Source: an uncultured Bacteroidales bacterium (GTDB lineage: Bacteria > Bacteroidota > Bacteroidia > Bacteroidales > Paludibacteraceae). From it: DNA of 33,309 bases. Shown here piece by piece: positions 5,714-18,754 of the stretch. The position numbers and the translations under genes were made by a program. The stretch covers positions 1 through 33,309 of the forward strand of contig CACYHE010000005.1 in assembly GCA_902774185.1 (NCBI GenBank), given 5' to 3'. The notes under the pieces are model-generated. The model saw nothing but the letters and a program-made list of their open reading frames with translations. It was not told where the DNA came from and made no database searches. The first letter of the stretch is position 1; each line of letters begins with the position of its first letter.

Positions 5714-5745
5714 TTTGCATAATTCAAAAAAAAGCATTAATTTTG
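5714..5745 (+). promoter_or_regulatory. Bacteroidetes-type promoter P1 (ATPase 1)
   Basis: TTTG at 5714-5717 and TAATTTTG at 5738-5745 (consensus TAnnTTTG) are separated by 20 bp, the usual spacing for the primary sigma factor of Bacteroidota. The intervening AATTCAAAAAAAA tract resembles those of the other ATPase promoters here. Confidence 0.8.
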
Positions 5746-5757
5746 CACCGGATTTGA

Positions 5758-5794
5758 ATTTTATTACTTTTTAATAATTATTAAATAATAAAAT
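5758..5794 (+). promoter_or_regulatory. AT-only nested inverted repeat in 5' UTR of ATPase 1
   Basis: Outer arms ATTTTATTA (5758-5766) and TAATAAAAT (5786-5794) match perfectly. They enclose a perfect 16-bp palindrome, TTTAATAATTATTAAA (5770-5785). The structure lies directly before the ATG at 5796 and replaces any Shine-Dalgarno site. It could control translation or be a cruciform-forming or recombination site; this is inference. Confidence 0.6.
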
Positions 5795-5795
5795 C

Positions 5796-6926
5796 ATGAA
5801 AGCGAATGATAATCCGTTTGTAATCAGTGGTTATGAGGGTGCACACTATTTCTGCGACCGCGAAAAAGAGACTGAACAACTCCGTCATGAGGTTGCCAAC
5901 GGTAATAATGTGGCGCTCATCGCCGCTCGTCGTATGGGTAAGAGTGGGCTGATTGAGCATTATTTAAGCCAACTGGAGATACAGGAGCGCTATTACACCT
6001 TTTTTATTGATATATATGACACTAAATCGCTTCGTGAGTTGGTGCGCAAACTCAGCCGTGAGATACTCCTCCGTCTGAAGCCTGCAGGCGCTCGAGCCAT
6101 GGAGCGCTTCTGGCGGACCATGCGGTCTATCCAGTCCGGCATAAGCTTTTCTCCGATGGGCGAACCGAGTTTCACTGTTCAAATTGGCGACATCAAAGAA
6201 CCGGAGGCTACCTTAGATGAAATCTTCCGCTATTTGGAGTTGGCTGATAAACCGTGCATTGTGGCAATCGATGAGTTCCAGCAAATAGGTAAGTTTCCTG
6301 AGAAGAATATAGAAGCTATGTTGCGGACTTATGTACAGCAATGCCATAATGCACAGTTCATCTTCTCCGGAAGCCAGCGTCATGTCATGAGCACGATGTT
6401 CACCAGTGCGTCGCGACCGTTCTATCAAAGTGTGTCTATCATGCATATTGACTCGATAGACAGGACGACCTACGATGAGTTTGCCAAATCACTTTTTATG
6501 GAAGGAGACCGCACCTTGGCGGATGGCGTGACGGAGGCTGTATATGCGCTTAGTAGAGGAGTAACATGGTACACCCAGAAGTTATTTAACGTCTTGTATG
6601 GATATACGCGCGAAGGGGAGAAGTGTGAAGTGGAGCAGGTAGATGAAGCGCTGGATTATATTCTTAAAACGCAGTCGTATGTATATGAAGAGACCATCTC
6701 CCGTTTGCCGGAGAAGCAGACCATAATACTCATAGCGCTGTCTAAAAACGGACCTACGCAAAGCATAACTTCCGCTGCTTTTGTGGAGAAATACAGCCTC
6801 CAGTCGGCAAGTACGGTGCAGTCGGCTATGAAAGGTCTGTTGGAAAAAGACTTTGTTACCTTTGAGAAAGGTGTTTATTCTGTTTACGACATATTTTTGG
6901 ATTACTGGATCCAACGTATGTATTAA
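5796..6926 (+). CDS. P-loop ATPase 1 (archaeal-ATPase/STAND-like, no nuclease tail)
   Basis: 376 residues. The Walker A-like motif AARRMGKS is at residues 43-50; it lacks the first glycine but keeps GKS. The hydrophobic strand CIVAIDEF gives Walker B acids D159-E160, and FIFSGSQRH follows as a sensor strand. The C-terminal third looks like a winged helix (SASTVQSAMKGLLEKDFV). This architecture matches the ATPase_2 (PF01637) type proteins that are multicopy in Bacteroidales and whose role is poorly known. It is close in length and motif order to the gene at 11687 (376 and 377 residues). It has its own promoter at 5714 and is followed 21 bp later by the DUF4105 gene with no terminator between, so it probably heads that transcript. 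The start is the only ATG fitting the family N terminus. Confidence 0.88.
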   Translation: MKANDNPFVISGYEGAHYFCDREKETEQLRHEVANGNNVALIAARRMGKSGLIEHYLSQLEIQERYYTFFIDIYDTKSLRELVRKLSREILLRLKPAGARAMERFWRTMRSIQSGISFSPMGEPSFTVQIGDIKEPEATLDEIFRYLELADKPCIVAIDEFQQIGKFPEKNIEAMLRTYVQQCHNAQFIFSGSQRHVMSTMFTSASRPFYQSVSIMHIDSIDRTTYDEFAKSLFMEGDRTLADGVTEAVYALSRGVTWYTQKLFNVLYGYTREGEKCEVEQVDEALDYILKTQSYVYEETISRLPEKQTIILIALSKNGPTQSITSAAFVEKYSLQSASTVQSAMKGLLEKDFVTFEKGVYSVYDIFLDYWIQRMY

Positions 6927-6947
6927 TTCCTTAATCCCGAGTAAACT

Positions 6948-7847
6948 ATGTTGCGAAAAATCTATACTATCCTATCATTACTCTTGTTAGCGGCCTCTCT
7001 GTCAGCCCAAGAGCAGGAGATGACAGTTGCGGAGCGGAATGCTGCGCAGGGTTTTAATGACACAATCGACCGATTAGATCCGGACTTTGTAACGGTGAGT
7101 TTGTGTATAGCTGATCCTACAGATCAGAGCCAGGATTATTTAGGTATGACTGGGCATTCTTTTTTACGTCTCCAATGTCCTACCTTTGGACTCGATTATT
7201 GTTTCAGTTATGAAAGCGAGAAGATCAAAGGGCAGTTATGGGATTATTTGACGGGCAAACTGAGAATGGGCATGTTTGCTGTATCGACAAATGAGTATTT
7301 GGAAGACTATCGTATATGGAAACGGGCTGTGCATGAATATAGAATCAACATGCCGGCTGATGCTGAGCTACGTCTTTGGGAGCAGATGGATAACCATATG
7401 ATGTCGGAAAATGACATGCAGATGGATCTGGTTAAATATGATTGTGCCAATACCCTCTTACGTTACGTGGAGCGCGCCTTGTCGCCCACGCAGATCACGT
7501 ATCACTGGCCGGAGAAATTCTTAACAAAATCGGCTATGGAACTTGCGGAGGAGCAGTTGGCTAATTACCCATGGTCATTGTTAGTGGTGCGTTTGACGGC
7601 CGGGAAGGAATATGCAAAACTGACGACTCCCAAGCAGAAAGTGATTTTCCCGACCGATTTGTTGGAAGTCTGGTCACAATCCACCATCAATGGTGAGCCG
7701 ATGTTGAAATATGTGGGTGAGTTAGTGGAAGCGGAACAGGTTGTGGTTAAAAAACCTTGGTTCACTCCGCAAGTATGCGGCATACTGCTGTTGCTGGTTT
7801 GTGCAGGAGGATGTATTTGGATGCTTGTGCGTAAGCGCAAAAAATGA
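6948..7847 (+). CDS. DUF4105 / Lnb N-terminal-like periplasmic protein with C-terminal membrane anchor
   Basis: 299 residues. A signal peptide (MLRKIYTILSLLLLAASLSA) is followed by a periplasmic domain with GHSFLRL (H70) and YDCANTLLRYVE (C166). These are typical positions of the His and Cys motifs in DUF4105 (PF13387), a permuted papain/NlpC-like fold. A C-terminal hydrophobic helix (about 274-292) ends in RKRKK, giving a single-pass anchor with the basic end in the cytoplasm. The next gene starts within its stop codon region (4-bp overlap), showing tight coupling to the condensation-fold protein. DUF4105 proteins occur in Bacteroidota lipid and pigment gene clusters, where their task is not established. 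An amide- or ester-cleaving role on an envelope lipid is possible but inferred. Confidence 0.78.
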   Translation: MLRKIYTILSLLLLAASLSAQEQEMTVAERNAAQGFNDTIDRLDPDFVTVSLCIADPTDQSQDYLGMTGHSFLRLQCPTFGLDYCFSYESEKIKGQLWDYLTGKLRMGMFAVSTNEYLEDYRIWKRAVHEYRINMPADAELRLWEQMDNHMMSENDMQMDLVKYDCANTLLRYVERALSPTQITYHWPEKFLTKSAMELAEEQLANYPWSLLVVRLTAGKEYAKLTTPKQKVIFPTDLLEVWSQSTINGEPMLKYVGELVEAEQVVVKKPWFTPQVCGILLLLVCAGGCIWMLVRKRKK

Positions 7848-8980
7848 CAAAGGACCGACCCAAATATCCGCTCTTGCCTTTTGCCCAATTGATATGGGAT
7901 CAAATGCAATATCTTCCCGATATATATCGGGATAAGGTTTCGTTGACCTTTGGTGCATTAACTATAGATGTATCCCGTTTGCAAGATGCGGTAGAAAAGG
8001 CTATGCATAATCATCCGGTTTTTTCAACAATAATCACAGACCAAGGGGAGCAGTATTTCCAACCGTCCGATGATATCCTCAAAGGGCAGTTTCATGCTAT
8101 CGAATACCAACTCGATGGGGATAAGTATACCATGCAGTTTGCGTTTAGCCGGATTTTAGGGGATGCGTATAGCTTTCGGTTGTTGTTTCAAGATATTTTT
8201 CGCGCTTATACGGGAAAACCTCTTTTCGAAGATCACTATTGGGATTTCCTCCATAGGTACGAACAACTCAAGTCCTCTCCTCGCTATGAAGCAGATCGGC
8301 AGTGGTATGAAGAACATTTCGGCGAAGTCACATACGATGTCCGTCCTAATGTAGATACGAATGAATCGTTAAGTCAGTTTGGAGAAGAAGGAGTAATCGT
8401 GGATGATCTGACAGATGTAAGACCTCAAATACAACCTGTCCTTGATCAATATAAACTATCTGCTTCGCAGTATATATCTTTGTGCGTGGCCCTATCTATT
8501 ATGGAGTACAACGGCACTGATTCGGCTGCACTGACGTGGGCATATCTTGGACGAGAGACGATGGAAGACATGGCAGTTTTTGGATCCTTGCACCGAGATA
8601 TACCGATTAAAATCACGAAGAAAGAAAGTTTTTATAAGCAAGATTTGTTACGACAAATACAAGCACAAATGACGCAAAGTATTGCGCATAGTTCGTATCC
8701 GTACACATTGCTCGCTCCTCAAAATCAGATATGGGATTATGCGGTAAATGTACTGACTTCTATTACAGAAGAAAGACTAACGCAATATGCACCTATTCCA
8801 GTGCAACTGCATATCGAAGAAAATAGGCAAGCGATGTCGTTGCTGGATGTAGATGTGTATGATGATGGAGGCATGGCAATCGTATATCGCTATAGTGCAA
8901 CCCATTATAAACCCGAATCCATCCAAAAATTCGCGGCATTAGTACGCAAATATGTTGAATGGCTTTTAGAAAGTGAATAG
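7844..8980 (+). CDS. Condensation-domain-fold protein, catalytic HHxxxDG lost
   Basis: 378 residues. Overall layout resembles the NRPS condensation/acyltransferase (CAT-like) fold: an N-terminal FAQLIWDQMQ segment, a core motif region at residues 102-108, and a later region equivalent to the DFG lobe. Where the family has HHxxxDG this protein reads SRILGDA, so both histidines and the glycine are replaced and only the structural Asp remains. It is therefore either catalytically dead, a binding or partner subunit, or an enzyme using other residues. It overlaps the DUF4105 gene by 4 bp (ATGA) and overlaps the decarboxylase start by 8 bp, within a short tandem repeat. It could modify or hand over acyl chains from the ACP pathway downstream. 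The fold call is moderate and the function is unknown. Confidence 0.65.
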   Translation: MTKDRPKYPLLPFAQLIWDQMQYLPDIYRDKVSLTFGALTIDVSRLQDAVEKAMHNHPVFSTIITDQGEQYFQPSDDILKGQFHAIEYQLDGDKYTMQFAFSRILGDAYSFRLLFQDIFRAYTGKPLFEDHYWDFLHRYEQLKSSPRYEADRQWYEEHFGEVTYDVRPNVDTNESLSQFGEEGVIVDDLTDVRPQIQPVLDQYKLSASQYISLCVALSIMEYNGTDSAALTWAYLGRETMEDMAVFGSLHRDIPIKITKKESFYKQDLLRQIQAQMTQSIAHSSYPYTLLAPQNQIWDYAVNVLTSITEERLTQYAPIPVQLHIEENRQAMSLLDVDVYDDGGMAIVYRYSATHYKPESIQKFAALVRKYVEWLLESE

Positions 8981-9003
8981 TGAAGAGTTAATAGTGAATA
9001 GTG
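8972..9003. repeat. Short tandem repeat at the gene junction (AGTGAAT units)
   Basis: AGTGAAT, AGTGAAGAGTTAAT, AGTGAAT and AGTG run consecutively. The repeat contains the last codons and stop of the upstream gene and the first about 10 codons of the decarboxylase gene, so both termini are partly repeat-encoded. Confidence 0.8.
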
Positions 9004-10016
9004 CGTTGCGTGCTTTGTTGGAGCAGCGACTGCAGCAAGCGGCGATCGAGAATCCGCATCGTGAGACCAATCCGGTGCGGACGATAGAGGATTGGTGTGC
9101 CTATGTGGAGCGCTTTGCGTATCTGATGCCGTGGCAGGGGATGGATGTCGGCGAGGAGGCTTCCTTCTTCCGCCGCATTGACCAGAATATCGGCTATTTC
9201 TATTTTCTATTGGGTGATCTGCAGTATGAACCGCGTATCGCACAATGGCTCAAAGCATACAATATCGCATGGGGCGAGTGGCTCAGTAGTCCGGAGAGTT
9301 GGACGGAAGCGTATTACCGACTCGCGCTCTCTGATCCGCTTTTCGAACTCGCTACCGATCGCTACGAATCCCCCTCTAATTGGCATTGTTGGAATGACTT
9401 TTTCGCCCGCAAACTGCGAAGTCCTTTCACCTTTCACCTTTCACCTTTCACCTTTATCAGTCCCTGCGACGGCGTTATCGCAGAAGAAGGACTGATAAAA
9501 ACGGCTTCGATAGCTAACTGGCTGGATTTGCTCGGCGATAGCCCGTATCGAGAGTGCTTCGCTGGCGGCGAAACGACGCATATCGTCCTCGACGTCTTTG
9601 ACTACCATCGTTTCCATGCCCCGTGCGATGGTACGGTGCTGGAATGCAAGACCATCGAAGGCATCCATGCCGGCGGAGGTGTCATTATCTGGGACGAAGA
9701 GCAGGGTAGGTATCGCTATGACCAACTCGGCGTGACCGATTTTCAGATGTTAGAGACCCGTGGAGTCCTTATTCTCGACACCCCCGCTTTCGGCAAGATA
9801 GCCATCGTCCCCGTCGGTGTCCAGCAAGTATCTTCCGTCCAATGGACGATACCCTACACCGTACACCCTACACCGTACACCATCCACCAAGGTGAAGAGC
9901 TTGGTCGTTTTCAGTTCGGCGGAAGTGATATCGTCCTTTTTTTCGAGCCCAGTCGTGCCCCACTGATATCGCCCAAAGCCGTCAAAGTCGGCGATCCTAT
10001 AATCGAAAATCGCTAA
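8973..10016 (+). CDS. psd: Phosphatidylserine decarboxylase-family protein
   Basis: 347 residues, GTG start inside a repeat; the real start might be slightly downstream. Family landmarks are WNDFFARKL, SPCDG (D166), DYHRFHAP (H212, H215) and FGGSD (G317-S318). These match the Asp-His-Ser triad for self-cleavage, and Ser318 would become the pyruvoyl group of a small alpha chain of about 30 residues. The enzyme would decarboxylate phosphatidylserine or a related serine-containing lipid at the inner membrane. Two short tandem repeats are inserted in frame: SPFTFHLSPFTF at about residues 150-161, and PYTVHPTPYTIH at about 293-304. Both appear to lie in linkers outside the catalytic motifs. It sits at the end of the DUF4105-condensation unit and is closed by a terminator at 10029. 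It could be housekeeping Psd or a cluster-specific head-group enzyme. Confidence 0.85.
   Translation: MNSEELIVNSALRALLEQRLQQAAIENPHRETNPVRTIEDWCAYVERFAYLMPWQGMDVGEEASFFRRIDQNIGYFYFLLGDLQYEPRIAQWLKAYNIAWGEWLSSPESWTEAYYRLALSDPLFELATDRYESPSNWHCWNDFFARKLRSPFTFHLSPFTFISPCDGVIAEEGLIKTASIANWLDLLGDSPYRECFAGGETTHIVLDVFDYHRFHAPCDGTVLECKTIEGIHAGGGVIIWDEEQGRYRYDQLGVTDFQMLETRGVLILDTPAFGKIAIVPVGVQQVSSVQWTIPYTVHPTPYTIHQGEELGRFQFGGSDIVLFFEPSRAPLISPKAVKVGDPIIENR
9424..9455. repeat. In-frame 7-bp tandem repeat inside psd
   Basis: Four exact TTTCACC units (9425-9452) followed by TTTATC encode FTFHLSPFTF. Three units equal seven codons, so gain or loss of one unit would shift the frame. Confidence 0.9.
9852..9883. 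repeat. In-frame 14-bp tandem repeat inside psd
   Basis: Two copies of TACACCGTACACC (period 14) encode PYTVHPTPYTIH shortly before the cleavage motif. The unit is unrelated to the 7-bp repeat at 9425. Confidence 0.85.
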
Positions 10017-10028
10017 TCCCTAATCGAT

Positions 10029-10056
10029 AAAAATCGCTTCCCCTGAGGCGATTTTT
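10029..10056 (+). terminator. Rho-independent terminator after psd
   Basis: AAAAATCGC and GCGATTTTT form a perfect 9-bp stem around TTCCCCTGAG. It begins 12 bp after the decarboxylase stop and ends the unit headed by ATPase 1. Confidence 0.88.
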
Positions 10057-10060
10057 ATAC

Positions 10061-10090
10061 CTCTAAACTCTAAACTTTCAACTTTCAACT
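10061..10090. repeat. Short tandem repeats CTCTAAA / CTTTCAA
   Basis: Two short repeat types (CTCTAAA twice, then CTTTCAA twice) lie between the psd terminator and the promoter of ATPase 2. Confidence 0.75.
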
Positions 10091-10108
10091 GAAAATTCCA
10101 CGAATTTT

Positions 10109-10139
10109 CTTGCTATATCAAAAAAAAGTAGTACTTTTG
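10109..10139 (+). promoter_or_regulatory. Promoter P2 (ATPase 2)
   Basis: TACTTTTG (10132-10139) lies 19 bp after CTTG (10109-10112, one mismatch to TTTG). The spacer TATATCAAAAAAAAGTAG and the trailing GCAGCGGATTT match the promoters at 11582 and 14896. Confidence 0.78.
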
Positions 10140-10184
10140 CAGCGGATTTGTAAACGGCCATTAATATTAATACATATTAACATT

Positions 10185-11495
10185 ATGAAATTCTACGACA
10201 GAGATGCAGAATTGGAAGTGCTGCATTCGATAGAAGAGCAGTCGCGCAATAGTGCTACGTTCACGGTACTAATGGGGCGTAGGCGAGTAGGCAAGACATC
10301 ACTCATTATGCGCGCTATGATAGATGTAGAGTCAGCCTATCTCTTTGTCTCGAAGGATAACGAGGCCTTTCTCTGTCAGAAATTTCAGCGTGCCATAGAG
10401 GAGCAGTTACATATACAGGTTTATGGAACATTGACGCATTTCCGTGACCTGTTTGAGGTCATTATGCGTGAGTCCGTTACGCGCCATTTTACGCTTATTA
10501 TCGATGAGTTTCAGAATCTCTATAAGGTCAATCCTGCCATCTTCAGTGAGATACAGGATATATGGGATCGATACCACACGCAGTCGCATATCAACCTTAT
10601 TGCATCCGGTAGTATATTGTCGCTGATGAAGCGAATCTTCGAGAATGAAAATGAACCGCTCTATGGGCGTCCTACTTCCAAGATGACCTTGCGTCCGTTT
10701 ACGATCGAGACCTTCAAACAGATCTTCCGTGACCATTGTCCGAATTATAAAAATGAGGACTTGCTTTGTCTGTATATGCTTACCGGAGGCGTAGCGAAAT
10801 ACGTCGAACTACTGATGGACGCAGGCTGCTATACAAAGGAGAAAATGCTCAATTACGTGTGTCGCATGGATTCGTATTTCTTGTCAGAAGGTCGAGATTT
10901 GATCAATAACGAGTTCGGTTCGGATTATAATACCTATTATTCCATCTTACAACTTATTGCTTCCGGACTTAACCATCGTAGTGACATCGATGGCGCACTG
11001 CAGAAAGATAGCGGCGTGTATCTGCTTAATTTGGAGAATAATTTCGGCATGGTATCGCGTATCCGTCCGATTCTTGCTTCGCCGAATTCGAAGATTTCGT
11101 CCTACGAAATCACCGATCCCTTCCTGCGTTTCTGGTTCCGTTTTATATGTCCCTACCAGGCTTTGATAGAGAGCGGACAGTTGCGCCTGTTGCGAGAAAA
11201 TATCAATATCCACTATGAGCAGTTCACAGGTCGTACGTTGGAACGCTATTTCCAGACGCAATTGATGGAAACCGGCAATTACTCGCTGGTGGGCAATTGG
11301 TGGGATAAACAGGGAGGTAACGAGATAGATGTGGTTGCATTGGATGAGTTCAACCACACCGGATTGATTGCGGAGGTAAAACGTAACGATCGGAAATTGA
11401 GCATACCCAAGTTAGAAGAGAAAATGGGAAAATTACCTGGTTCATTCTGCAAATACCATTTTACAATGAAAGGTTTGTCCATAAAGGATATGTAA
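10185..11495 (+). CDS. P-loop ATPase 2 with PD-(D/E)XK (DUF234-like) C terminus
   Basis: 436 residues from the ATG at 10185. The frame is open further upstream, but that stretch is promoter and leader. Walker A is GRRRVGKT (31-38) and Walker B is LIIDEF (D107-E108), followed by the sensor strand LIASGS. A winged-helix region follows (ILQLIASGLNHRSDIDGAL). The C terminus carries EIDVVAL (D382) and AEVKR (E397-x-K399), the D...ExK signature of a PD-(D/E)XK nuclease fold as in archaeal ATPase-DUF234 proteins (PF01637/PF03008). Nucleic-acid cleavage is likely only by family analogy. It has its own promoter, a terminator upstream and the conserved 3' element at 11504, so it forms a self-contained cassette. 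A heavily deleted second copy lies at 23119 with the same leader. Confidence 0.88.
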   Translation: MKFYDRDAELEVLHSIEEQSRNSATFTVLMGRRRVGKTSLIMRAMIDVESAYLFVSKDNEAFLCQKFQRAIEEQLHIQVYGTLTHFRDLFEVIMRESVTRHFTLIIDEFQNLYKVNPAIFSEIQDIWDRYHTQSHINLIASGSILSLMKRIFENENEPLYGRPTSKMTLRPFTIETFKQIFRDHCPNYKNEDLLCLYMLTGGVAKYVELLMDAGCYTKEKMLNYVCRMDSYFLSEGRDLINNEFGSDYNTYYSILQLIASGLNHRSDIDGALQKDSGVYLLNLENNFGMVSRIRPILASPNSKISSYEITDPFLRFWFRFICPYQALIESGQLRLLRENINIHYEQFTGRTLERYFQTQLMETGNYSLVGNWWDKQGGNEIDVVALDEFNHTGLIAEVKRNDRKLSIPKLEEKMGKLPGSFCKYHFTMKGLSIKDM

Positions 11496-11503
11496 TACGA
11501 TTT

Positions 11504-11537
11504 TAATTTTTGGGATCATTGTTGGTAATTTTTGACC
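11504..11537 (+). repeat. Conserved 34-bp 3' element, copy A
   Basis: It begins TAATTTTTGG, continues GATCATTGTTGG and ends TAATTTTTGACC, so it has a direct repeat of TAATTTTTG at both ends. Copies follow the nuclease gene (24692) and the KilA-N remnant (26152). It is not a simple hairpin terminator. Confidence 0.85.
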
Positions 11538-11581
11538 CCAAGAAGAAAATCGTTAAATTCGATCATTTTGTGAACGATTTA

Positions 11582-11613
11582 TTTGCATATATCAAAAAAA
11601 TGTAGTACTTTTG
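11582..11613 (+). promoter_or_regulatory. Promoter P3 (ATPase 3, probably also fabG and ketosynthase)
   Basis: TTTG (11582-11585) and TACTTTTG (11606-11613) are separated by 20 bp, an exact match to the Bacteroidetes consensus. No other promoter or terminator is visible between here and the end of the ketosynthase gene. Confidence 0.85.
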
Positions 11614-11614
11614 C

Positions 11615-11657
11615 AGCGAAAAAAGTGTGACAAAAAATGTGTGACGAAAATTTCGCT
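11615..11657 (+). promoter_or_regulatory. Leader inverted and direct repeats of ATPase 3
   Basis: AGCGAAA (11615-11621) pairs with TTTCGCT (11651-11657). Inside lie two near-direct copies of AAAAAAGTGTGAC / AAAAAATGTGTGACG. A stem-loop in the 5' UTR is likely; its role is unknown. Confidence 0.6.
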
Positions 11658-11686
11658 ATAACTATAGTGTATAAAATCAGATAATT

Positions 11687-12820
11687 ATGACAGATAAGGC
11701 GATCGTTTTTAATCCGTTTTCTATTGCCTCATACATAGGACCGAAGTATTTCTGTGACCGTGACGAGGAGACGAAAGAGCTGGTGGGGGCATTGGCCAAT
11801 GGACGCAATGTAACGCTGATTAGTCCTCGCCGTGTAGGTAAAACGGGATTGATTCAGCATTTCTTTCAGAGTTTGAATCCGAAGGAAGTGCAGTGTTTCT
11901 ATGTGGATCTGTATAGCACTTCCAATCTGCAGGAGTTTACCAAACTCTTTGCACAAGAAGTGTTGACCAAGCGTATCACGCCATTCTCCGAACAGGTTTG
12001 GTCGGAGATTACCCATTTCTTTGGTGCGCTACGTCCGGTCTTCGGGGCTGACCCTATTAGTGGCATGCCGCAATGTACGATAGATATTCAGCCGCAACGA
12101 GAAGAATGGACTTTGCAGCAGATCTTTGCGTACTTGGAGAAATCGGCTACCCCTTGTTATGTTGCGTTCGATGAGTTTCAGACGATAGCGGAATATTCGG
12201 ATGTGAAGATGGAGGCTCTACTGCGTACCTATATCCAGCAGTTGCGTAATGTGCATTTTATCTTCTCCGGCAGCAAGAAACATATCATGACCGAGATGTT
12301 CTCTTCCGCCAAGCGTCCTTTCTATCGCAGTACGCAGATGATGCATATCGATGTGATCGACGAGCAGGTGTACTATGCTTTTGCTACCAAACATCTCTCT
12401 GCACATGGTCAAAACATGGAAGAAAGCACGTTCCATGACCTCTATGCCCTTGTCAACGGCTATACATGGAACATACAGAGCTTGCTCAATCGACTTTATC
12501 AAAGCGGAGTGGAGCAGATCGATTATAATAGGGTACTGATGACCCTCAATCAGATCTTGCTTGAGGAAGCGCCTTCTTATCAGATGATTTCTCGTCTTAT
12601 CACCGATCGCCAACTACAAGTGCTGCGAGCTGTAGCGAAAGAAGGAGGTGTCAAAGAGCCGGGCAGTAATGTGTTCCTTCAAAAGCACCAACTCGGAGCG
12701 TATAGCACTGTTCGCAGTGCAATACAGAATCTGATGGAGAAGGAGCTACTCTATCAAAACGATGATGGTGCGTATGTGGTTTATGAGAAGTTCTTTGCGC
12801 TTTGGTTGAAACAACATTAA
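11687..12820 (+). CDS. P-loop ATPase 3 (archaeal-ATPase/STAND-like, no nuclease tail)
   Basis: 377 residues. Walker A is SPRRVGKT (46-53), Walker B is YVAFDEF (D162-E163), and the sensor strand is FIFSGSKKH. A C-terminal winged-helix-like segment contains YSTVRSAIQNLMEKELL. Its order of motifs and many local strings (YFCDR, EALLRTY, FIFSGS) match ATPase 1, so they are paralogues of one subfamily. Without a nuclease tail it should act as an NTP-driven switch or DNA-binding protein (inference). It has its own promoter and a leader stem-loop. The stop is followed by a TAATTCCC tandem repeat and then fabG with no terminator, so the reductase and ketosynthase are probably transcribed from this ATPase's promoter. 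Confidence 0.88.
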   Translation: MTDKAIVFNPFSIASYIGPKYFCDRDEETKELVGALANGRNVTLISPRRVGKTGLIQHFFQSLNPKEVQCFYVDLYSTSNLQEFTKLFAQEVLTKRITPFSEQVWSEITHFFGALRPVFGADPISGMPQCTIDIQPQREEWTLQQIFAYLEKSATPCYVAFDEFQTIAEYSDVKMEALLRTYIQQLRNVHFIFSGSKKHIMTEMFSSAKRPFYRSTQMMHIDVIDEQVYYAFATKHLSAHGQNMEESTFHDLYALVNGYTWNIQSLLNRLYQSGVEQIDYNRVLMTLNQILLEEAPSYQMISRLITDRQLQVLRAVAKEGGVKEPGSNVFLQKHQLGAYSTVRSAIQNLMEKELLYQNDDGAYVVYEKFFALWLKQH

Positions 12821-12853
12821 TCCCTAATTCCCTAATTCCCTAATCACTAATCG
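12818..12853. repeat. TAATTCCC tandem repeat abutting fabG start
   Basis: TAATCCC, TAATTCCC, TAATTCCC, TAATCAC and TAATCG run consecutively and end 2 bp before the GTG start. They occupy the position where a ribosome-binding region would be. Confidence 0.85.
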
Positions 12854-12855
12854 AA

Positions 12856-13599
12856 GTGAAACGCTATGCATTAATAACCGGCGCAAGCCGGGGAATAGGA
12901 CGAGCGATTGCTATTGAGTTGGCGAAAGACGGCTGTTCTATCTTGCTAAACTACAAGTCCAATCAGGCTGCAGCTGAGGAAGCCAAGCGTCTGATTGAGG
13001 AAGCCGGCGGCGAAGCCGAACTGATGCCCTTCGATGTATCCCAACCCGATGCCATCAATGCCGCGCTGGATGCATGGTTCACCGCCCATCCGGACGACTA
13101 TATTGACGTGCTGGTGAACAACGCCGGTATCGTCGATGACGAGATTATGCTGGCGATGGAGCCGGAGCAATGGCATCGCGTGATTGATGTGAACCTCAAC
13201 GGCTTCTTCTATTGCACCCGCCGTGTCATTGAAGGAATGGTCATCAACCATCACGGGCGGATTGTTAATTTATCCTCCATTAGTGGGCAAGTAGGAAATG
13301 TCGGACAAGTAAATTATTCCGCTGCAAAATCAGCACTAATAGGAGCAACAAAGACAATAGCGAAAGAATTAGCACCTAAACATGTAACGGTAAATGCTGT
13401 TTCTCCCGGAGCAATAGAGACCGACATGGTTCGGGCTAGTGAAGAGTATATGCCGGAGTATATGCGCGATATAAGCAATATCCCTATGCGTCGTCTTGGC
13501 AAACCCGAAGAAGTTGCCTATCTGGTGTCTTTCCTTTGCAGCGATCGAGCCAATTATATTTCCGGCCAAGTAATTGGCATCAATGGCGCTGCTTTATGA
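12856..13599 (+). CDS. fabG: 3-oxoacyl-ACP reductase (FabG-like short-chain dehydrogenase)
   Basis: 247 residues, GTG start. The Rossmann motif TGASRGIG is at residues 8-15, VNNAGI in the middle, and the catalytic set is S141, Y154 and K158 (YSAAK) with the standard 13-residue Ser-Tyr spacing. The length and the C-terminal ISGQVIGINGA are typical of FabG, which reduces beta-ketoacyl-ACP with NADPH. The genes for ketosynthase, ACP and oxidoreductase nearby point to a dedicated type II pathway rather than the housekeeping copy. It lies 35 bp after ATPase 3 without a promoter of its own, and 34 bp before the ketosynthase. Both junctions are filled by short tandem repeats of different sequence. 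Confidence 0.93.
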   Translation: MKRYALITGASRGIGRAIAIELAKDGCSILLNYKSNQAAAEEAKRLIEEAGGEAELMPFDVSQPDAINAALDAWFTAHPDDYIDVLVNNAGIVDDEIMLAMEPEQWHRVIDVNLNGFFYCTRRVIEGMVINHHGRIVNLSSISGQVGNVGQVNYSAAKSALIGATKTIAKELAPKHVTVNAVSPGAIETDMVRASEEYMPEYMRDISNIPMRRLGKPEEVAYLVSFLCSDRANYISGQVIGINGAAL

Positions 13600-13600
13600 T

Positions 13601-13636
13601 GATAAATGGTAAATTGTAAATGACAAATCGTAAATG
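13601..13636. repeat. Degenerate TAAATnG repeat abutting ketosynthase start
   Basis: GATAAATG, GTAAATT, GTAAATGAC, AAATC and GTAAATG form about five degenerate units, and the last one supplies the ATG of the ketosynthase gene. Confidence 0.75.
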
Positions 13637-14872
13637 AATCGACGTGTCGTAGTAACAGGAATGGGTATTTGGTCATGCATCGGACAAGACCTGCAAACAG
13701 TCACCGAGAGCCTTCGTCAAGGACGCTCAGGAATTGGTGTACGGCCGGAACGAAAGGCGTTAGGCTATCATTCTTTATTATCCGGTATCGTTCCTCGTCC
13801 GGATCTGAAACCCTTGTTGGATCGCCGTTTGCGCAATACGCTTTCCGAAGAAGCCGAATATGCCTATATGGCAACGCGTGAAGCGCTGAACAATGCGCAT
13901 ATAGATGCCGATTATTGCCGGCAAAACGAACTGGGTGTTGTCTTTGGTAATGATACTTCCAATAGGGCGGTTGTGGAGTCTTATAATAACGCCGTGGAAA
14001 CAGGCAATACCTTCATGCTCGGTTCCGGCATGGCGTTTCAGGCACTTACCAGCAATGTGGCGATGAACATGGCGAATATCTTTCATCTGCGAGGAGCAAA
14101 CTTTACCACTCCTTCCGCATGTGCCTCCGGCGCGCAAGCGATAGCATTGGCAGCGATGCTTATTCAATCCGGTCAACAGGATATCATCGTTGCCGGAGGT
14201 GCACAAGAAACCAACAATATTTCCATGATTGCATTCGATGGAGTCAATACGCTCTCCAAACGCAATGAAGATCCGACTCACGCTTCGCGACCTTTTGATA
14301 AAAACCGGGATGGATTAGTACCAAGCGGTGGAGCTGCGGCTTTGGTATTGGAGGAATATGAGCATGCCATAGCGCGTGGAGCCACTATCTATGCCGAGCT
14401 TGCGGGTTTCGGATTCTCTCAGAATGAGACACCGCTTGGTCAACCATCTGTCGAAGGCGAATATAAAGCGATGCGCAATGCTCTTCGAAACGCCAACCTG
14501 CAACCGCAAGATATAGACTATATCAACGCCCATGCTACCTCTACCGTCTCCGGCGACATCGCAGAAGCGGAAGCAATAAAACGATTGTTTGTCCAATCAC
14601 CAATGATTTCGTCCACGAAATCTATGACCGGTCACGAATGCTGGATGGCAGGCACCAGTGAAGCGATCTATACGATTCTGATGATGCAGCATAATTTCGT
14701 CGCTCCCAGCATCAATATCGAGGAGTTGGACGAGTTCGCGAAAGACCTCAATATTGTTCGTGAGGCAAAAAAAGCAGAGATCAAAATTGCACTCTCCAAT
14801 TCCTTCGGCTTCGGAGGCACAAACTGTGTGTTAGTGTTTAGGAAGGTGATTGATTACCCCAAAATTGCCTAA
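13634..14872 (+). CDS. Beta-ketoacyl-ACP synthase (FabF-type ketosynthase)
   Basis: 412 residues. The catalytic triad is complete: C163 in SACASGAQ, H300 in NAHATST and H334 in KSMTGHE. The terminal FGFGGTNC glycine motif is present. It extends acyl chains on ACP by decarboxylative Claisen condensation. The HATST variant of the usual HGTxT suggests a specialised rather than primary-metabolism enzyme. A fragmentary second ketosynthase at 18234 suggests that the cluster once had a ketosynthase pair, as seen in aryl-polyene and other type II polyketide systems. A 105-bp gap separates it from ATPase 4, which carries its own promoter. Confidence 0.93.
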   Translation: MNRRVVVTGMGIWSCIGQDLQTVTESLRQGRSGIGVRPERKALGYHSLLSGIVPRPDLKPLLDRRLRNTLSEEAEYAYMATREALNNAHIDADYCRQNELGVVFGNDTSNRAVVESYNNAVETGNTFMLGSGMAFQALTSNVAMNMANIFHLRGANFTTPSACASGAQAIALAAMLIQSGQQDIIVAGGAQETNNISMIAFDGVNTLSKRNEDPTHASRPFDKNRDGLVPSGGAAALVLEEYEHAIARGATIYAELAGFGFSQNETPLGQPSVEGEYKAMRNALRNANLQPQDIDYINAHATSTVSGDIAEAEAIKRLFVQSPMISSTKSMTGHECWMAGTSEAIYTILMMQHNFVAPSINIEELDEFAKDLNIVREAKKAEIKIALSNSFGFGGTNCVLVFRKVIDYPKIA

Positions 14873-14895
14873 ATTCTCAAAAATATTCTAAAATA

Positions 14896-14927
14896 TTTGC
14901 ATATATCAAATATTTATTGTACATTTG
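14896..14927 (+). promoter_or_regulatory. Promoter P4 (ATPase 4, probably also ACP and oxidoreductase)
   Basis: TTTG (14896-14899) and TACATTTG (14920-14927) are separated by 20 bp. The flanks TTTGCATATATCAAA and TTTGCAGCGGATTT match P2 and P3 closely. Confidence 0.83.
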
Positions 14928-14949
14928 CAGCGGATTTTGAATTATAACA

Positions 14950-14983
14950 CGCCACGAAATAATAAAAACACATATTCGTGGCG
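14950..14983 (+). promoter_or_regulatory. 5' UTR hairpin of ATPase 4
   Basis: CGCCACGAA (14950-14958) pairs perfectly with TTCGTGGCG (14975-14983) around a 16-nt AT-rich loop. It ends 15 bp before the chosen ATG. The GTG within its right arm is in frame but is unlikely to be the start. Confidence 0.75.
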
Positions 14984-14998
14984 AAATATAACGCAATT

Positions 14999-16447
14999 AT
15001 GAGTGCGATTATCGGAAGAGACAAAGAGGTTGACGAGTTAAAACAACTGGTACAAAGTCAACGAGCAGAGTTTGTGGCGATTTATGGTCGTCGCCGTGTT
15101 GGGAAGACTTTTCTTGTAGATGAAGCCCTTCGAGAGGAGATCACTTTCCGTCATGCAGGATTAAGTCCTGTGGACGAGGACGGCAAAGCCAATAAGATGA
15201 AAGAGCAGTTGCTGCATTTCTATCATTCTCTACTGCTGCAAGGTTGGAAAGGAAGAAGTCGCCCGAAGAATTGGTTAGAGGCGTTCTTTCTGTTAGAGCA
15301 ACACCTGCAAGCCATTGATAATGGCGAACGGCAAGTGGTGTTTATTGATGAATTGCCGTGGATGGACACTCCGCGGAGCGGTTTCATAACGGCATTAGAG
15401 GCATTTTGGAATGGTTGGGCTTGTCATCGTCCTAATATGATGCTGGTCGTTTGCGGTAGTGCCAATTCGTGGATGTTGGATAATCTGGTCAATAATCATG
15501 GCGGGCTATACGGTCGTACAACCTACGAGATCAAACTTACGCCTTTTGCCTTAACTGAATGCGAGCAGTTCTACGAAAGTCGCGGCATACAACTATCGCG
15601 CTATGACATTGCGCAAGCGAACATGATTCTTGGCGGTATCCCATATTACATGGGGTATTTTACACGCGGAAAGAGCCTTGCGCAGAATATTGACAATCTA
15701 TTCTTTGCACCAAATGCCAAGTTAAAAGATGAGTTTGTAAAGCTCTTTTCCTCTGTCTTTACGAATCCCGAGGAGATGATGCGGATTGTACGTTATCTGG
15801 CTACGAAGCGCAAAGGATACACACGCGAAGAAATCGCCAAAGGCACGCACTTGAGTTATAATGGAGATCTTTCAAAATGGCTCAAAGCCTTGGCTGCTAG
15901 CGATTTCATTGTCAGTTATGTACCGTTCGGTGAAAGCGCACGCAATGTGCATTTCCGGCTTACAGATCCTTTCTGTTTGTTCTATCTGAAGTTCGTGGAT
16001 GGGCAATCGGAAATGGATGAAGCATTCTGGATGAATAATGTATATTCGCAAAAAATCAACAGTTGGCGAGGTTTTGCTTTTGAAGACCTTTGCCTGCGTC
16101 ATGTGGATGCTATCAAGCGTGCCTTGCAAATAGGAGGCATCTCATCCTCTCAATCCGCTTGGACAGTTAGCGGAGACGACCAGCAAGAAGGGACGCAAAT
16201 TGATTTGCTGATTTTAAGAAAAGATAATGTAGTGAACATGTGCGAGATGAAGTTCTACAGCGAAGAGTTTGCAGTACGAACGGACTATCATAAGAGATTG
16301 GTACATCGCACGAATGTTTTGCAGCCCTATCTTTCCCGCAAGATGGTCATTCATAGCACATTGGTGACGACATATGGGCTAACCTATAATCAGTATTCCG
16401 GGGATTTTGTGAACGTTGTGACAATGGAGGATCTATTTAAGGAGTGA
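14999..16447 (+). CDS. P-loop ATPase 4 with PD-(D/E)XK (DUF234-like) C terminus
   Basis: 482 residues from ATG at 14999, chosen because the family begins with IIGR and the upstream GTG lies inside a hairpin. Walker A is GRRRVGKT (30-37), Walker B is VVFIDELPW and the sensor strand is VVCGS. A winged-helix segment includes YTREEIAKGTHLS. The C terminus has GTQIDLLIL and MCEMKFY, a D...ExK nuclease-type signature. It belongs to the ATPase_2 plus DUF234 group but is a different subfamily from ATPase 2. It separates the ketosynthase from the ACP gene, and its promoter is the only one seen for the ACP-oxidoreductase block. The biological role of this family is not established. Confidence 0.88.
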   Translation: MSAIIGRDKEVDELKQLVQSQRAEFVAIYGRRRVGKTFLVDEALREEITFRHAGLSPVDEDGKANKMKEQLLHFYHSLLLQGWKGRSRPKNWLEAFFLLEQHLQAIDNGERQVVFIDELPWMDTPRSGFITALEAFWNGWACHRPNMMLVVCGSANSWMLDNLVNNHGGLYGRTTYEIKLTPFALTECEQFYESRGIQLSRYDIAQANMILGGIPYYMGYFTRGKSLAQNIDNLFFAPNAKLKDEFVKLFSSVFTNPEEMMRIVRYLATKRKGYTREEIAKGTHLSYNGDLSKWLKALAASDFIVSYVPFGESARNVHFRLTDPFCLFYLKFVDGQSEMDEAFWMNNVYSQKINSWRGFAFEDLCLRHVDAIKRALQIGGISSSQSAWTVSGDDQQEGTQIDLLILRKDNVVNMCEMKFYSEEFAVRTDYHKRLVHRTNVLQPYLSRKMVIHSTLVTTYGLTYNQYSGDFVNVVTMEDLFKE

Positions 16448-16518
16448 TTCCCTAACTCCCTAATTCGAAAATAAAAAACAAATAGTACATAGTAAATGAT
16501 TAAATAGTAAATGATATT
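16448..16518. repeat. Two tandem-repeat blocks abutting ACP start
   Basis: First comes TTCCCTAACTCCCTAATTCG (16448-16467), then TAGTAcATAGTAAATGATTAA and TAGTAAATGATATT-type units up to the ACP start at 16519. The second type is unrelated to the first. Confidence 0.75.
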
Positions 16519-16782
16519 ATGACCAAGCAAGAAATTATTGACAAGACGAATGCTTTTCTCGCCGATGAATACGAGAAAGACCCGGCATTGCTCAAGCCGG
16601 AGGCGCGTTTCCGTGAAGATTTGGATCTAAACAGTTTGGATTATATGGATCTCATGGTAATGGTTAAGCGCGAGTTTGATATCATGCCGGCTCCGGCAGA
16701 GATGAATCTTGTCGTTACACTCGGCGATTTCTATGATTTCATCGAGAAAAAACTAAACGAACCTAAGCAAACGAATGAGTGA
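16519..16782 (+). CDS. Acyl carrier protein
   Basis: 87 residues. The helix-II motif LDLNSLDYMDLM has Ser39 as the 4'-phosphopantetheine attachment site; the usual DSL is NSL here. The protein is acidic with the size of a discrete type II ACP. It carries acyl intermediates between the ketosynthase, FabG-like reductase and probably the FAD enzyme. The next gene overlaps its end by 8 bp, showing translational coupling with the oxidoreductase. Confidence 0.93.
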   Translation: MTKQEIIDKTNAFLADEYEKDPALLKPEARFREDLDLNSLDYMDLMVMVKREFDIMPAPAEMNLVVTLGDFYDFIEKKLNEPKQTNE

Positions 16783-18247
16783 TAAAAACCCACATACGGT
16801 TTGTATTATCGGTGGAGGCATGAGCGGACTCTTCACCGGTGCGCTGCTCGCCAAGAATGGTTATAAAGTGACCGTTCTGGAGAAAAATCATATCATAGGT
16901 GGAGGACTACAATCTTTCCGTCGTGGTGATGTGGTGTTTAATACCGGTATGCAGGCATTTTGCGGGTATGGAGATGATTTTGCTCTGAAGCATTTTATTG
17001 ACTATATAGGTCTTAATCATGAAGATATACATTTTGTACCGCTTGATCCCAACGCACAGGAAATAGTATGGACGGACAAGAAGCATGCATATCGGCTTCC
17101 TAAAACACGCAAACGGTATGAAGAATATCTGATTTCACAATTTTCGCACGAAGCAAAAGGAATTCATCAATTATTGGATGCCGTCTATGAAATAGGCAGT
17201 ACGTTTGATTATTTTTGGTTGCATCCCATGCAACTGCATCCGGCTGCAGCAAAATACGGAGTAATAACAGCCCGCCAATTATTGGAGCAATGCCTGACAA
17301 ATGAGAGGCTGATACGTCTATTTGAATATGTAGGAATGCATCTTGGATATAACCTTTCCTGCTTGCCAGCTACGGAATTAGGGATGATTCTAAATCTGTA
17401 TATAGAAGGAGGTTGGCGTATTGCCGGAGGCAACTTGCCGTTCGCCAAACAATTGGTGCAATTTATTGAAGAGAATGGAGGAAAAGTATATACTAATACG
17501 GAAGTCTCCAAAGTTACAGCAGAAAATCGCAAGGTTGTAAGTATAAAAACAGCGGATGGGCGAACATTTGTGGCTGATCAGTATGTATGTGCGATTCCTC
17601 CGAAAACATTCATCCAAATTACCGACGGGGAGGTGCTTCGTTCTACAACCTATGACCGTATTATGGAGTTCAATAATGATTCGTCGTGCTGCATTTATCA
17701 TATCAAGTTGAAACCGAATAGCATGAAATATAGTAATAATTTGATATTTGTACCCACGCCTACTGTCGATAACTCTTTACCCCATTATATATCCATGCTT
17801 ACTCCCCCTTCATTAAATCAAGGAGAGTGGGCGGATACGGTAGAAATTCTGACTTTTGCGCGTTATGGAGAATATAAGCAATGGGAGAATACAAAAACGG
17901 GGCATCGAGGTGCAGATTACGAAAAAAAGAAAGAGCAGTTATCTCAAAAAACGATAGCGTATGTATCTCAGTTCTATCCGGAATTAAGAGATGCAGTGGA
18001 TACGGTTTATATTTCAACACCTTTGACTGTCAGAGATTACTATGGTAATCCGGACGGAGCTGTGTACGCCCAGCAGGGTATGTTTGCGCCGGTTAAAACC
18101 AAAGCGTCCAATTTGTTTATGACTGGTCAGTCCGTGCAATATCAGGGACTATTCGGTACGCTGACGACATCTATTGCTGTTGCAGAGATAATGATGGGCA
18201 AAAGTTTAATCGGAGAAATCGCAAACGCATCAGATGGACGTGTATGA
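16775..18247 (+). CDS. FAD-dependent oxidoreductase, phytoene desaturase/carotenoid isomerase-like
   Basis: 490 residues. The N-terminal dinucleotide fold has IIGGGMSG (residues 11-18) and the ribose-binding E35, followed by GGGLQSFRRGDVVFNTG, typical of the phytoene desaturase/CrtISO/retinol saturase superfamily. The C-terminal FAD segment is NLFMTGQSVQYQGLFG. It probably desaturates, saturates or isomerises a chain made by the ACP-linked pathway; related proteins occur in Bacteroidota flexirubin/aryl-polyene-type clusters. It overlaps the ACP gene by 8 bp, and the broken ketosynthase starts inside its 3' end. The superfamily is certain and the substrate unknown. Confidence 0.88.
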   Translation: MSDKNPHTVCIIGGGMSGLFTGALLAKNGYKVTVLEKNHIIGGGLQSFRRGDVVFNTGMQAFCGYGDDFALKHFIDYIGLNHEDIHFVPLDPNAQEIVWTDKKHAYRLPKTRKRYEEYLISQFSHEAKGIHQLLDAVYEIGSTFDYFWLHPMQLHPAAAKYGVITARQLLEQCLTNERLIRLFEYVGMHLGYNLSCLPATELGMILNLYIEGGWRIAGGNLPFAKQLVQFIEENGGKVYTNTEVSKVTAENRKVVSIKTADGRTFVADQYVCAIPPKTFIQITDGEVLRSTTYDRIMEFNNDSSCCIYHIKLKPNSMKYSNNLIFVPTPTVDNSLPHYISMLTPPSLNQGEWADTVEILTFARYGEYKQWENTKTGHRGADYEKKKEQLSQKTIAYVSQFYPELRDAVDTVYISTPLTVRDYYGNPDGAVYAQQGMFAPVKTKASNLFMTGQSVQYQGLFGTLTTSIAVAEIMMGKSLIGEIANASDGRV

Positions 18248-18578
18248 AACCATGAAAGCCGAACATAATACGTTTATGCTTGGACCTAATGCGCAATTTC
18301 AAAGTGAGACTTCATCCGTTGTGATGAATCTGAATGCGATATTTCATCTGCGGGGGATCAATCTCTGTATTGGAGCAGCTTGTGCAAGCGGTAGCCATGC
18401 TATAGGTTTTGCCAAATTACTCCATGACCGGTCACGAGAACTGGATGGCAGGAGCAAGCGAAGCGGTCTATTCGATATTGATGATGCAGAACAATTTCGT
18501 AGCGCCCAATATCAATCTGGAGCACAAAATCGATGAAGCGAAAGATCTTAATATCGTTACAGAAATTCGCAAAAAGTA
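18234..18578 (+). pseudogene. Second ketosynthase, remnant with N-terminal, internal and C-terminal loss
   Basis: From 18234 the frame reads NTFMLGPNAQFQSETSSV, FHLRGINL and GAACASGSHAIGF. It aligns to residues about 117-180 of the intact ketosynthase at 13634, including the active-site Cys. At about 18419 the match jumps, in another frame, to SMTGHENWMAGASEAVYS and AKDLNIV (the region of H334 and beyond), ending IRKK at 18578. About 115 N-terminal codons, about 150 internal codons and the C-terminal FGFGGTN part are missing. The sequence differs clearly from the intact gene, so it was a distinct partner such as a chain-length factor. It ends exactly where an ATPase-type promoter begins. Confidence 0.85.
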
Positions 18579-18579
18579 G

Positions 18580-18587
18580 TATCTTTG
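18580..18587 (+). promoter_or_regulatory. Promoter P5, -7 element (ATPase 5 stub)
   Basis: TATCTTTG, preceded by CAAAAAGTAG and followed by CGGCC, resembles P2 and P3. No good TTTG lies 19-21 bp upstream, because the ketosynthase remnant is fused there. It may be weak, but it is the only candidate for the DUF3737 block. Confidence 0.5.
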
Positions 18588-18592
18588 CGGCC

Positions 18593-18647
18593 AAAAGTCG
18601 CCCGAAAAAGCGTAGTGATTTACAAAAAAGTCGCCCGAAAAAGCGTA
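18593..18647. repeat. 22-bp direct repeats in leader of ATPase 5 stub
   Basis: Two exact copies of AAAAGTCGCCCGAAAAAGCG followed by TA lie at 18593-18614 and 18626-18647. A shorter degenerate copy, CTCATCCGAAAAAATG, follows at 18662. The layout resembles the repeats in the ATPase 3 leader. Confidence 0.85.
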
Positions 18648-18703
18648 AGGTAGAGCGATAAACTCATCCGAAAAAATGTTAACAGACTAAAAACAAACGC
18701 GAT

Positions 18704-18754
18704 ATGTATAGACGAAAGATAGAAGAAGAACTGAAAGCGAACATAATTCCCTAA
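18704..18754 (+). pseudogene. ATPase 5 stub (16 codons left)
   Basis: The ORF reads MYRRKIEEELKANIIP then stop. MYxRKIEEEL is the usual beginning of the AAA/DUF4143-type ATPases of Bacteroidales (family knowledge). The match ends at KA, where a short tandem repeat begins. With the promoter and repeated leader upstream, this looks like the start of a deleted ATPase cassette. Confidence 0.55.

Follow-up and report, generated by a model that had tools for sequence, protein, structure and literature searches.

Promoter-led ATPase and toxin-antitoxin-like genes appear to have entered a lipid-type operon of Paludibacteraceae many times

The stretch of DNA analysed here, hereafter the window, is 33,309 nucleotides (nt) long and forms the first 33 kb of contig 5 (CACYHE010000005.1) in the assembly of an uncultured Bacteroidales bacterium of the Paludibacteraceae (GCA_902774185.1; 2.19 Mb, 87% complete). 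It holds a cluster of lipid or fatty-acid-type genes among which stand four single P-loop ATPase genes, ATPase1 to ATPase4 (A1 to A4). A first-pass annotation had read this cluster as a row of blocks, each headed by an ATPase with a promoter of its own. The gene order on which it was built, namely ATPase1-DUF4105-condensation-psd, ATPase2, ATPase3-fabG-ketosynthase, ATPase4-acyl carrier protein (ACP)-FAD oxidoreductase-ketosynthase (KS) remnant and DUF3737-unknown, is recovered from the open reading frames (ORFs) and Pfam matches over its whole length. No transposase was noticed among the genes of the window's lipid cluster. The features are as follows.

5665..5704, plus strand: terminator-like hairpin 3' of the upstream surface-protein unit (fold z -5.4)
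5714..5745, plus strand: promoter P1 (strict pattern at 5715), probably resident at the site
5746..5795, plus strand: 5' leader of ATPase1, with an imperfect palindrome of about 30 bp kept among orthologues
5796..6926, plus strand: ATPase1 (A1), PF01637, with a C-terminus that looks winged-helix-like by eye
6948..7847, plus strand: DUF4105 / Lnb_N protein, pathway gene (Pfam)
7844..8980, plus strand: condensation-domain protein, pathway gene (Pfam)
8973..10016, plus strand: phosphatidylserine decarboxylase-like protein (psd, PSD), pathway gene (Pfam)
10027..10058, plus strand: strong terminator-like hairpin in the gap between psd and ATPase2 (fold z -6.2)
10110..10139, plus strand: promoter P2 (strict pattern at 10110)
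10185..11495, plus strand: ATPase2 (A2), PF01637 with DUF234, PDC-S27-like
11513..11537, plus strand: 25-nt repeat 3' of ATPase2, present three times in the assembly
11583..11613, plus strand: promoter P3 (strict pattern at 11583)
11687..12820, plus strand: ATPase3 (A3), PF01637
12856..13599, plus strand: FabG-like reductase, pathway gene (Pfam)
13634..14872, plus strand: beta-ketoacyl synthase, pathway gene (Pfam)
14897..14927, plus strand: promoter P4 (strict pattern at 14897)
14978..16447, plus strand: ATPase4 (A4), PF01637 and PDC-S27; start uncertain, with an ATG at 14999 also possible
16519..16782, plus strand: acyl carrier protein (Pfam)
16775..18247, plus strand: FAD (CrtI/amine-oxidase-like) oxidoreductase (family match)
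18234..18536, plus strand: remnant of a second ketosynthase, in which 18421-18522 repeats 14621-14722 at 80%
18560..18754, plus strand: P5 region, in which a -7 element alone is followed by a start codon and 16 codons that look by eye like an ATPase stub
18768..19496, plus strand: DUF3737 protein, the last cluster gene in many relatives
23047..23310, plus strand: promoter P6 and what is left of an ATPase2 relative after internal deletions (repeat families D6, D8, D10 and D15)

All four ATPases pass the PF01637 gathering cut-off of 33.2 bits (A1 43.6, A2 55.5, A3 39.6, A4 55.9), and only five genes in the whole assembly do so. The claim that they belong to at least three kinds was confirmed: A1 and A3 are 37% identical, A2 carries a DUF234 domain, and A4 corresponds to the PADLOC model PDC-S27, which it matches at full length (8-487 of 489 amino acids (aa), 5e-193; A2 reaches 1e-41). 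A nearby YhcG/DUF1016 gene matches PDC-S02 of the same collection, and A1 and A3 gave a good match to no PADLOC PDC model. We take PDC to mean phage-defence candidate. Relatives of A1 at E<=0.001 occur in 116 of the 178 genomes of the genus, a count that includes A3-type genes.

Passages of a published description (PMC7366714) give the Bacteroides sigma-ABfr promoter consensus as TTTG at -33 and TAnnTTTG at -7. The corresponding strict pattern used here was TTG-N17-23-TAnnTTTG, in which the -33 element is tested as TTG with a spacing of 17-23 nt. Between 5476 and 18800 on the plus strand it occurs five times, at 5715, 10110, 11583, 14897 and 17174 (the last inside the FAD oxidoreductase gene); over 300 runs of Markov-1 resampling the average is 0.66 hits and no run exceeds 3. 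The promoters P1 to P4 proposed earlier are thus supported by a strict hit before each intact ATPase. P5, placed at about 18560, does not stand as a promoter; its -7 element is present, its -33 element is absent and the strict pattern fails. The further claim that P2, P3 and P4 are near copies holds for P2 and P3, whose spacers are 0.90 identical, and not for the other pairs (P3-P4 0.75, P2-P4 0.65). Spacers of other ATPase promoters in the genus have a background identity of 0.55 +/- 0.13, with 1.5% of 1378 pairs reaching 0.84. The likeness of the promoters is mostly phylum consensus, and only P2 and P3 stand out. Downstream of A1, A3 and A4 the gaps to the next gene are 21, 35 and 71 nt long and promoter-free, and the FabG and KS genes have no visible promoter other than P3. 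A sigma-70-type scan was uninformative (41 found, shuffle mean 28.9), and the terminator scan that accompanied it missed both of the strong hairpins found by folding.

The genus was searched over 178 genomes, and the cluster was compared in 44 of them, Paludibacteraceae rumen metagenome-assembled genomes (MAGs); genomes carry G numbers and loci L numbers. The condensation gene at E<=1e-20 served as cluster marker and was present in 45 of the 178, the window's genome included. The census comprises 44 loci. Besides the window these come from 43 of the 44 remaining condensation-positive genomes, L248 having been dropped as too short; L250 (G113), which has no condensation gene, is excluded. Where clusters of the census occur in named records, the records are MAGs of Paludibacteraceae or Bacteroidales, and several were sampled from rumen or forestomach (deer, goat, sheep, yak, cattle). 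Genes on the plus strand were counted; a check found no module-labelled minus-strand gene inside the clusters, and eight unlabelled minus-strand ORFs of >=100 aa within them were left unclassified. Pfam was run on representative module genes and the remaining labels were assigned by blastp to these representatives, except that we gave the labels HipB, HigAB and RhuM from the sequence.

In each of the 44 layouts the gene immediately 5' of condensation or psd is DUF4105, but what lies between and behind the pathway genes varies. G001 has a continuous, ATPase-free cluster (DUF4105-Cond-PSD-KS-ACP-FAD-KS-FabG-DUF3737). Modules of the ATPase_2, AAA_14/DUF4143, HipBA, AbiE, Fic or Bro-N families interrupt 25 of the 44 clusters (24 of 43 without the window). 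A four-helix gene that we call IVP (23S-intervening-sequence-like, a name resting on a sub-cut-off Pfam match) was at first counted with the modules, which brought the total to 28 of 44 loci; its eight units in the clusters were then set apart because a promoter was found before none of them. The slot between PSD and FabG is filled by A2 and A3 in the window, A1 in G035, A3 in G012 and G151, A2 in G149, an AAA_14/DUF4143 gene in G019, G107 and G017, Fic in G030, AbiE in G026 and HipBA in G191. The slot between KS and ACP, occupied by A4 in the window, contains no module in G035, G019, G012 and G001 and an A1-type ATPase in G177. The same ATPases also change places. G035 carries A1 (88.6% aa identity) at PSD|FabG and A4 (73.7%) before DUF3737. 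In G074 A3 (86%) follows PSD and precedes an AMP-binding gene; in G150 A3 (74%) precedes DUF3737. The 20 orthologues of A1 (68-94% aa identity) have mostly unrelated surroundings; among up to two neighbours per side just nine families recur, each at 2-4 loci. A second slot in the same operon for an ATPase2-type gene, once noted in G113, was withdrawn because the ACP-like gene there is 37% identical and no other pathway gene lies in the stretch.

Because orthologous ATPases occupy different slots and unrelated modules occupy one slot, the modules are insertions into a continuous co-directional operon, repeated many times. This agrees with the earlier proposal that ATPase cassettes were inserted into a continuous lipid operon, to which ATPase-free relatives, orthologues in other slots and unrelated modules in one slot all speak. 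The same ATPases at the same sites in all relatives were looked for across the 44 loci; slots and families differ.

The modules were also distinguished by their promoters, searched for in a 260-nt window and scored when lying <=200 nt upstream. Among the non-IVP module units, 32 of 34 are preceded by the strict pattern (30 of 32 when the window is set aside); the two misses are the Bro-N gene in L222 and HipA in L243, where HipB falls below the size cut. An equal search window gave a promoter at 8 of 188 pathway-to-pathway junctions (5 of 188 if it stops at the previous gene), and 2 of 42 module-to-pathway gaps have one. Five of the eight promoter-bearing pathway junctions lie directly behind PSD. 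A genus-wide survey of PF01637 genes drew 60 loci from about 150 best matches listed, of which 58 were used and two were lost at contig edges. A promoter pattern stands <=200 nt upstream in 53 of these 58, at 48-88 nt from the start in 45 of the 53. For comparison, the figure is 18 of 97 for the remaining long ORFs of these loci and 14 of 1160 for upstream sequence after shuffling. Computed in this way, the suggestion that ATPase_2 genes sit first in transcripts is borne out, and the ATPases would almost always be first in theirs.

The earlier proposal that the ATPases now supply the operon's promoters fared differently at different slots. At the internal slots it is plausible in light of the module, junction and gap counts above and of the hairpin between psd and ATPase2, and we infer that transcription starting in front of a module continues into the pathway genes that follow. 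Such read-through is best argued for the middle of the window, where the z -6.2 hairpin would close the psd transcript and FabG and KS have no other visible promoter. At P1 the relation looks reversed. P1 matches the DUF4105 promoter of an ATPase1-free relative, so ATPase1 seems to have taken over the promoter of the operon.

The edges of the moving unit were assessed first in 38 orthologous ATPase pairs, some of which share flank. Homology begins 49-106 nt 5' of the start codon in 34 of them, within the promoter/start region, and its right edge falls between -34 and +24 nt of the stop codon in 31, with no common end seen; the flanks beyond mostly differ. Comparison of filled and empty A1 sites then places the left edge more precisely. 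The window and G078, which has no A1, have a spacer identity of 0.95, an identity of 0.71 over the 75 nt upstream and of 0.53 over the 50 nt after the core, close to the 0.47 of two unrelated leaders; for G113 and G190, the latter likewise without A1, the values are 1.0, 0.79 and 0.56. After the core the two A1-filled sites (window and G113) are 0.90 identical. Hairpins like that at 5665..5704 occupy the same site in relatives whether ATPase1 is present or not. As judged from these two filled/empty pairs, the promoter and upstream flank are part of the A1 site itself, with the start core TTTGCAxCG as the point where the ATPase begins. A1 may have been gained here, or it may have been precisely lost in G078 and G190; the edge is the same either way.

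Several other comparisons also concern this boundary. G188 and G150 share an A1 coding sequence (CDS) at 99% and a leader at 0.96, and their spacers (0.65) and upstream stretches (0.47) are at background. The unrelated A1 and A4 of G035, in two slots of one operon, have 194 of 200 upstream nt in common, ending at GCAGCG. The 100 nt at 10021-10120, which run from behind psd to just inside P2, have a 93% identical counterpart 5' of ATPase1 in G150, located there behind DUF3737. In L200 compared with L205 and L218 the shared sequence reaches the -33 element. A general rule that homology starts at -33 and that the promoter travels with the ATPase was withdrawn in view of the A1-site pairs and of G188/G150; it holds for L175/L176. 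The start-core junction and the promoter repeat described below would be the new parts of this work, and they are thinly supported.

The upstream block common to A1 and A4 in G035 (L036, minus strand; the copies end near 12117 and near 6898, respectively) is one member of a dispersed repeat of about 200 bp. With at most about four candidates scored per genome, it matches 166 of the 178 genomes at E<=0.001, the weak matches perhaps through the promoter only, and about 64 genomes at 1e-20 (hand count). In the window's own genome, where 40 of 67 candidates were scored, at least 38 matches at E<=0.01 were found, many to the promoter tail only; none of the scored matches lies inside the window, and copies outside it include C5:90269-90389, C4:98168-98288 and C29:5712-5877. 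The repeat consists of a promoter-like start, a hairpin TTCGAGG..CCTCGAA with changing loops, a second hairpin, an AT-rich palindrome and a canonical promoter. At 28 of the 30 best loci an ORF follows, which by eye is of ATPase, YhcG, DUF3990, AlbA-like, HipA, AbiE or RelE type in about 18 of the 28; the others include housekeeping and surface genes, for instance ParC/GyrA and TolC (also by eye). An Rfam search of 10 repeat-bearing loci gave one sub-threshold match, which lies outside the repeat. Evaluated as a structured RNA over 15 related copies, the repeat has compensatory change in 9 of 38 predicted pairs but a covariation term of only -0.38.

The leaders between promoter and start codon are conserved in their own right. 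Over 20 pairs the A1 leaders are 0.88 identical and fourfold-degenerate sites 0.43, a comparison that leaves out CDS pairs of unequal length and L080, whose promoter was unrecognised. Palindromes with z>2 occur in 14 of 20 A1 leaders and in 8 of 23 leaders of other ATPase_2 genes. Because leader identity is this high where fourfold sites have diverged, and because of the palindromes, the ATPase leaders are taken to be functional elements. Autorepression of the ATPase through its palindromic leader is a reasonable guess, and it would give the module some control over the genes behind it, which is what remains of the proposal that the ATPases are regulators. Members of a second A1 subfamily (L070, L071, L074, L075 and L078) have TTTTTCCATAAAATAATTTCCATAAAATGGAAAAAT variants just 5' of the promoter, possibly an operator. 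In G019 (L037:9560-9790), about four tandem repeats of some 56 bp with AGCCAAAT..TTGGCT arms are seen by eye directly 5' of an ATPase4-type gene.

Taken together, we assign a probability of about 0.78 to the reading that a lipid or fatty-acid-type operon has been invaded many times by autonomous promoter-led modules, with downstream co-transcription and recombination at the promoter core as its inferred parts. Single P-loop ATPase genes and toxin-antitoxin-like or defence-like genes would enter between pathway genes in the orientation of the operon, and each would come to lie immediately after a Bacteroidetes-type promoter. Where a pathway gene starts 20-100 nt after a module and lacks a promoter itself, it would be co-transcribed from the one that precedes the module. 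At internal slots this promoter may have come with the module or have pre-existed, and at P1 the module would have taken over that of the operon. Units would move by recombination with one end in the conserved promoter/start core, and selection would favour co-directional, non-disruptive insertions. As defence or addiction genes that repress themselves through a palindromic leader, the ATPases might then exert partial control over the genes behind them. A stronger version, which we consider rather unlikely, is that promoter cores serve as docking points, at which units of leader and CDS from unrelated defence or addiction genes are pasted exactly at the transcription start of existing promoters, those of the 200-bp repeat included, by recombination or an RNA-templated process. 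If so, an invader would be expressed at once and take over the following operon.

A number of observations weigh against the invasion reading or narrow it. The classes of pathway and module gene were assigned from families by our own judgement. ACPs and similar small genes were missed in some census layouts (for example L039, L041 and L044), which makes part of the slot names and gap lengths too coarse, and 6 of the 44 clusters stop <=400 nt from the locus end. Empty-site comparisons at uvrB (G104) and at a DEAD-box gene (G174) met relatives that had other surroundings or were themselves too diverged. A DUF4105 promoter was found in just 18 of 42 loci, so that its absence between ATPase1 and DUF4105 is not unusual by itself. 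A co-directional gene follows within 100 nt in 16 of the 53 surveyed PF01637 genes with a visible next gene, and therefore most ATPases do not head an operon; none of these 16 gaps contains a promoter, and heading an operon would be the minority case. A promoter is present at three of the seven PSD|FabG junctions that lack a module (G078, G171 and G199; L219, L224 and L232), so a slot promoter need not come from a module and modules are not its sole source; such promoters may be resident or the trace of a departed module. Finally, L175 and L176 (98.7% identical) have 205 nt upstream and 70 nt downstream in common, promoter and downstream hairpin included, and L185 and L186 share at least 399 nt upstream.

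The L175/L176 pair is what would be expected of moron-like units whose own promoter travels in the moving segment, without joining at a start core. This account, to which we give somewhat less than even odds, also agrees with the abundance of promoters at modules in internal slots and their rarity elsewhere, and with the likeness of L200 to L205 and L218 up to the -33 element. It does not fit the A1 site, where the promoter matches the ATPase1-free site and not other ATPase1 genes, nor the independent change of promoter and module seen in G188 against G150 and, separately, in G035, nor the promoters at module-free PSD|FabG junctions. The alternative offered by the first-pass annotation, in which each ATPase regulates the genes behind it, is improbable as a dedicated pairing. 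Leaders conserved beyond synonymous sites, a C-terminal end that is winged-helix-like in the alignment (by eye) and short promoter-free gaps (21-71 nt) in the window are compatible with regulation. However, the gene behind A1 is DUF4105 in the window, FabG in G035 and a different one in further genomes, the gene before FabG can be A1, A2, A3, AAA_14, Fic, AbiE or HipBA depending on the genome, and some clusters have no module at all. Because partners change between genomes in this manner, we reject this reading. Ancestral ATPases followed by differential loss would account for a PSD|FabG slot filled in 11 units, with A3 there in the window, G012 and G151, but one slot is filled by unrelated families, one ATPase stands in different slots and A1 orthologues lie mostly outside the cluster, which makes this scenario highly improbable. 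An artefact of MAG assembly or binning is less credible still; although the named genomes are incomplete MAGs and some clusters reach the end of their locus, the pattern recurs in 25 of 44 genomes and some of the named records come from several sampling projects.

The rest of the window contributed further observations. In the remnant at 23047-23310 the deletions leave one frame open, and promoter and leader are almost intact. The 25-nt repeat GGAyCATTGTTGrTrATTTTTGACC occurs at 11513-11537, 24701-24725 and 26160-26184, 3' of ATPase2, the YhcG/DUF1016 gene and a KilA-N-like ORF (named by eye), respectively; these are the sole three copies in the assembly and all lie in the window, which ruled the repeat out as a general cassette end. 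A leader ..ACATTTAAGATACAAAAAGATATG (family D2) is common to four successive genes at 23487, 24767, 25761 and 26191. The junctions at 6924, 10006, 12822, 16448, 18744 and 19473 have stop-codon-rich 8-nt repeats of TAATTCCC type, resembled by sequence 3' of ATPase3 in G113. A 398-aa family without a Pfam match is represented in the window at 19503-20699; in several genomes a member immediately follows ATPase1, and in others HipA or DUF3737 precedes it (family loci L081, L082, L084 and L085).

Phage morons are defined by a promoter and a terminator of their own. Passages on phage morons and prophage accessory loci (PMC7067206) describe genes inserted in operon-like arrays, often with roles in defence or fitness. 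The modules resemble these in being extra genes between the genes of an operon-like array and in the promoter before 32 of 34 non-IVP units. They differ in that a terminator of their own was not seen behind A1, A3 and A4, whose gaps hold no site listed by the terminator scan that also missed the two strong hairpins; the stem behind A2 is weaker (z -3.0), and L175/L176 in relatives do have a downstream hairpin. They differ further in their host, a chromosomal lipid operon whose flanking pathway genes recur in 44 clusters (no prophage search was made), and in the promoter at the A1 site, which appears resident and not carried. Integron gene cassettes are exchangeable, promoterless single-gene units with attC sites that stand behind a common promoter. 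Exchangeability is the only trait in common, since the units here usually have a promoter and leader, occupy separate slots and showed no shared end sequence (no attC or integrase search was made). PDC-S27 and PDC-S02 are single-gene candidates of PADLOC; the window's genes lie in a metabolic operon. Among the papers listed by searches of openly accessible literature, none was seen, as judged from the listings, to describe such an arrangement of modules within an operon.

The company kept by the ATPases, namely HipBA, AbiE, Fic and the PDC-S27 and PDC-S02 candidates, suggests that they are themselves defence or addiction genes. As inserts the ATPases are not special; HipBA, AbiE, Fic and AAA_14 genes behave alike in these clusters. 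In this genus, stand-alone P-loop ATPases behave like toxin-antitoxin or defence genes, mobile, promoter-led and tolerated within a metabolic operon. The junction at the start core gives a definite point from which the movement of such units can be tested. Provided that the promoters are active, annotation of ATPase-lipid associations from gene order alone would go astray, and the selfish or defence module that stands in front would in part determine how the operon is expressed.

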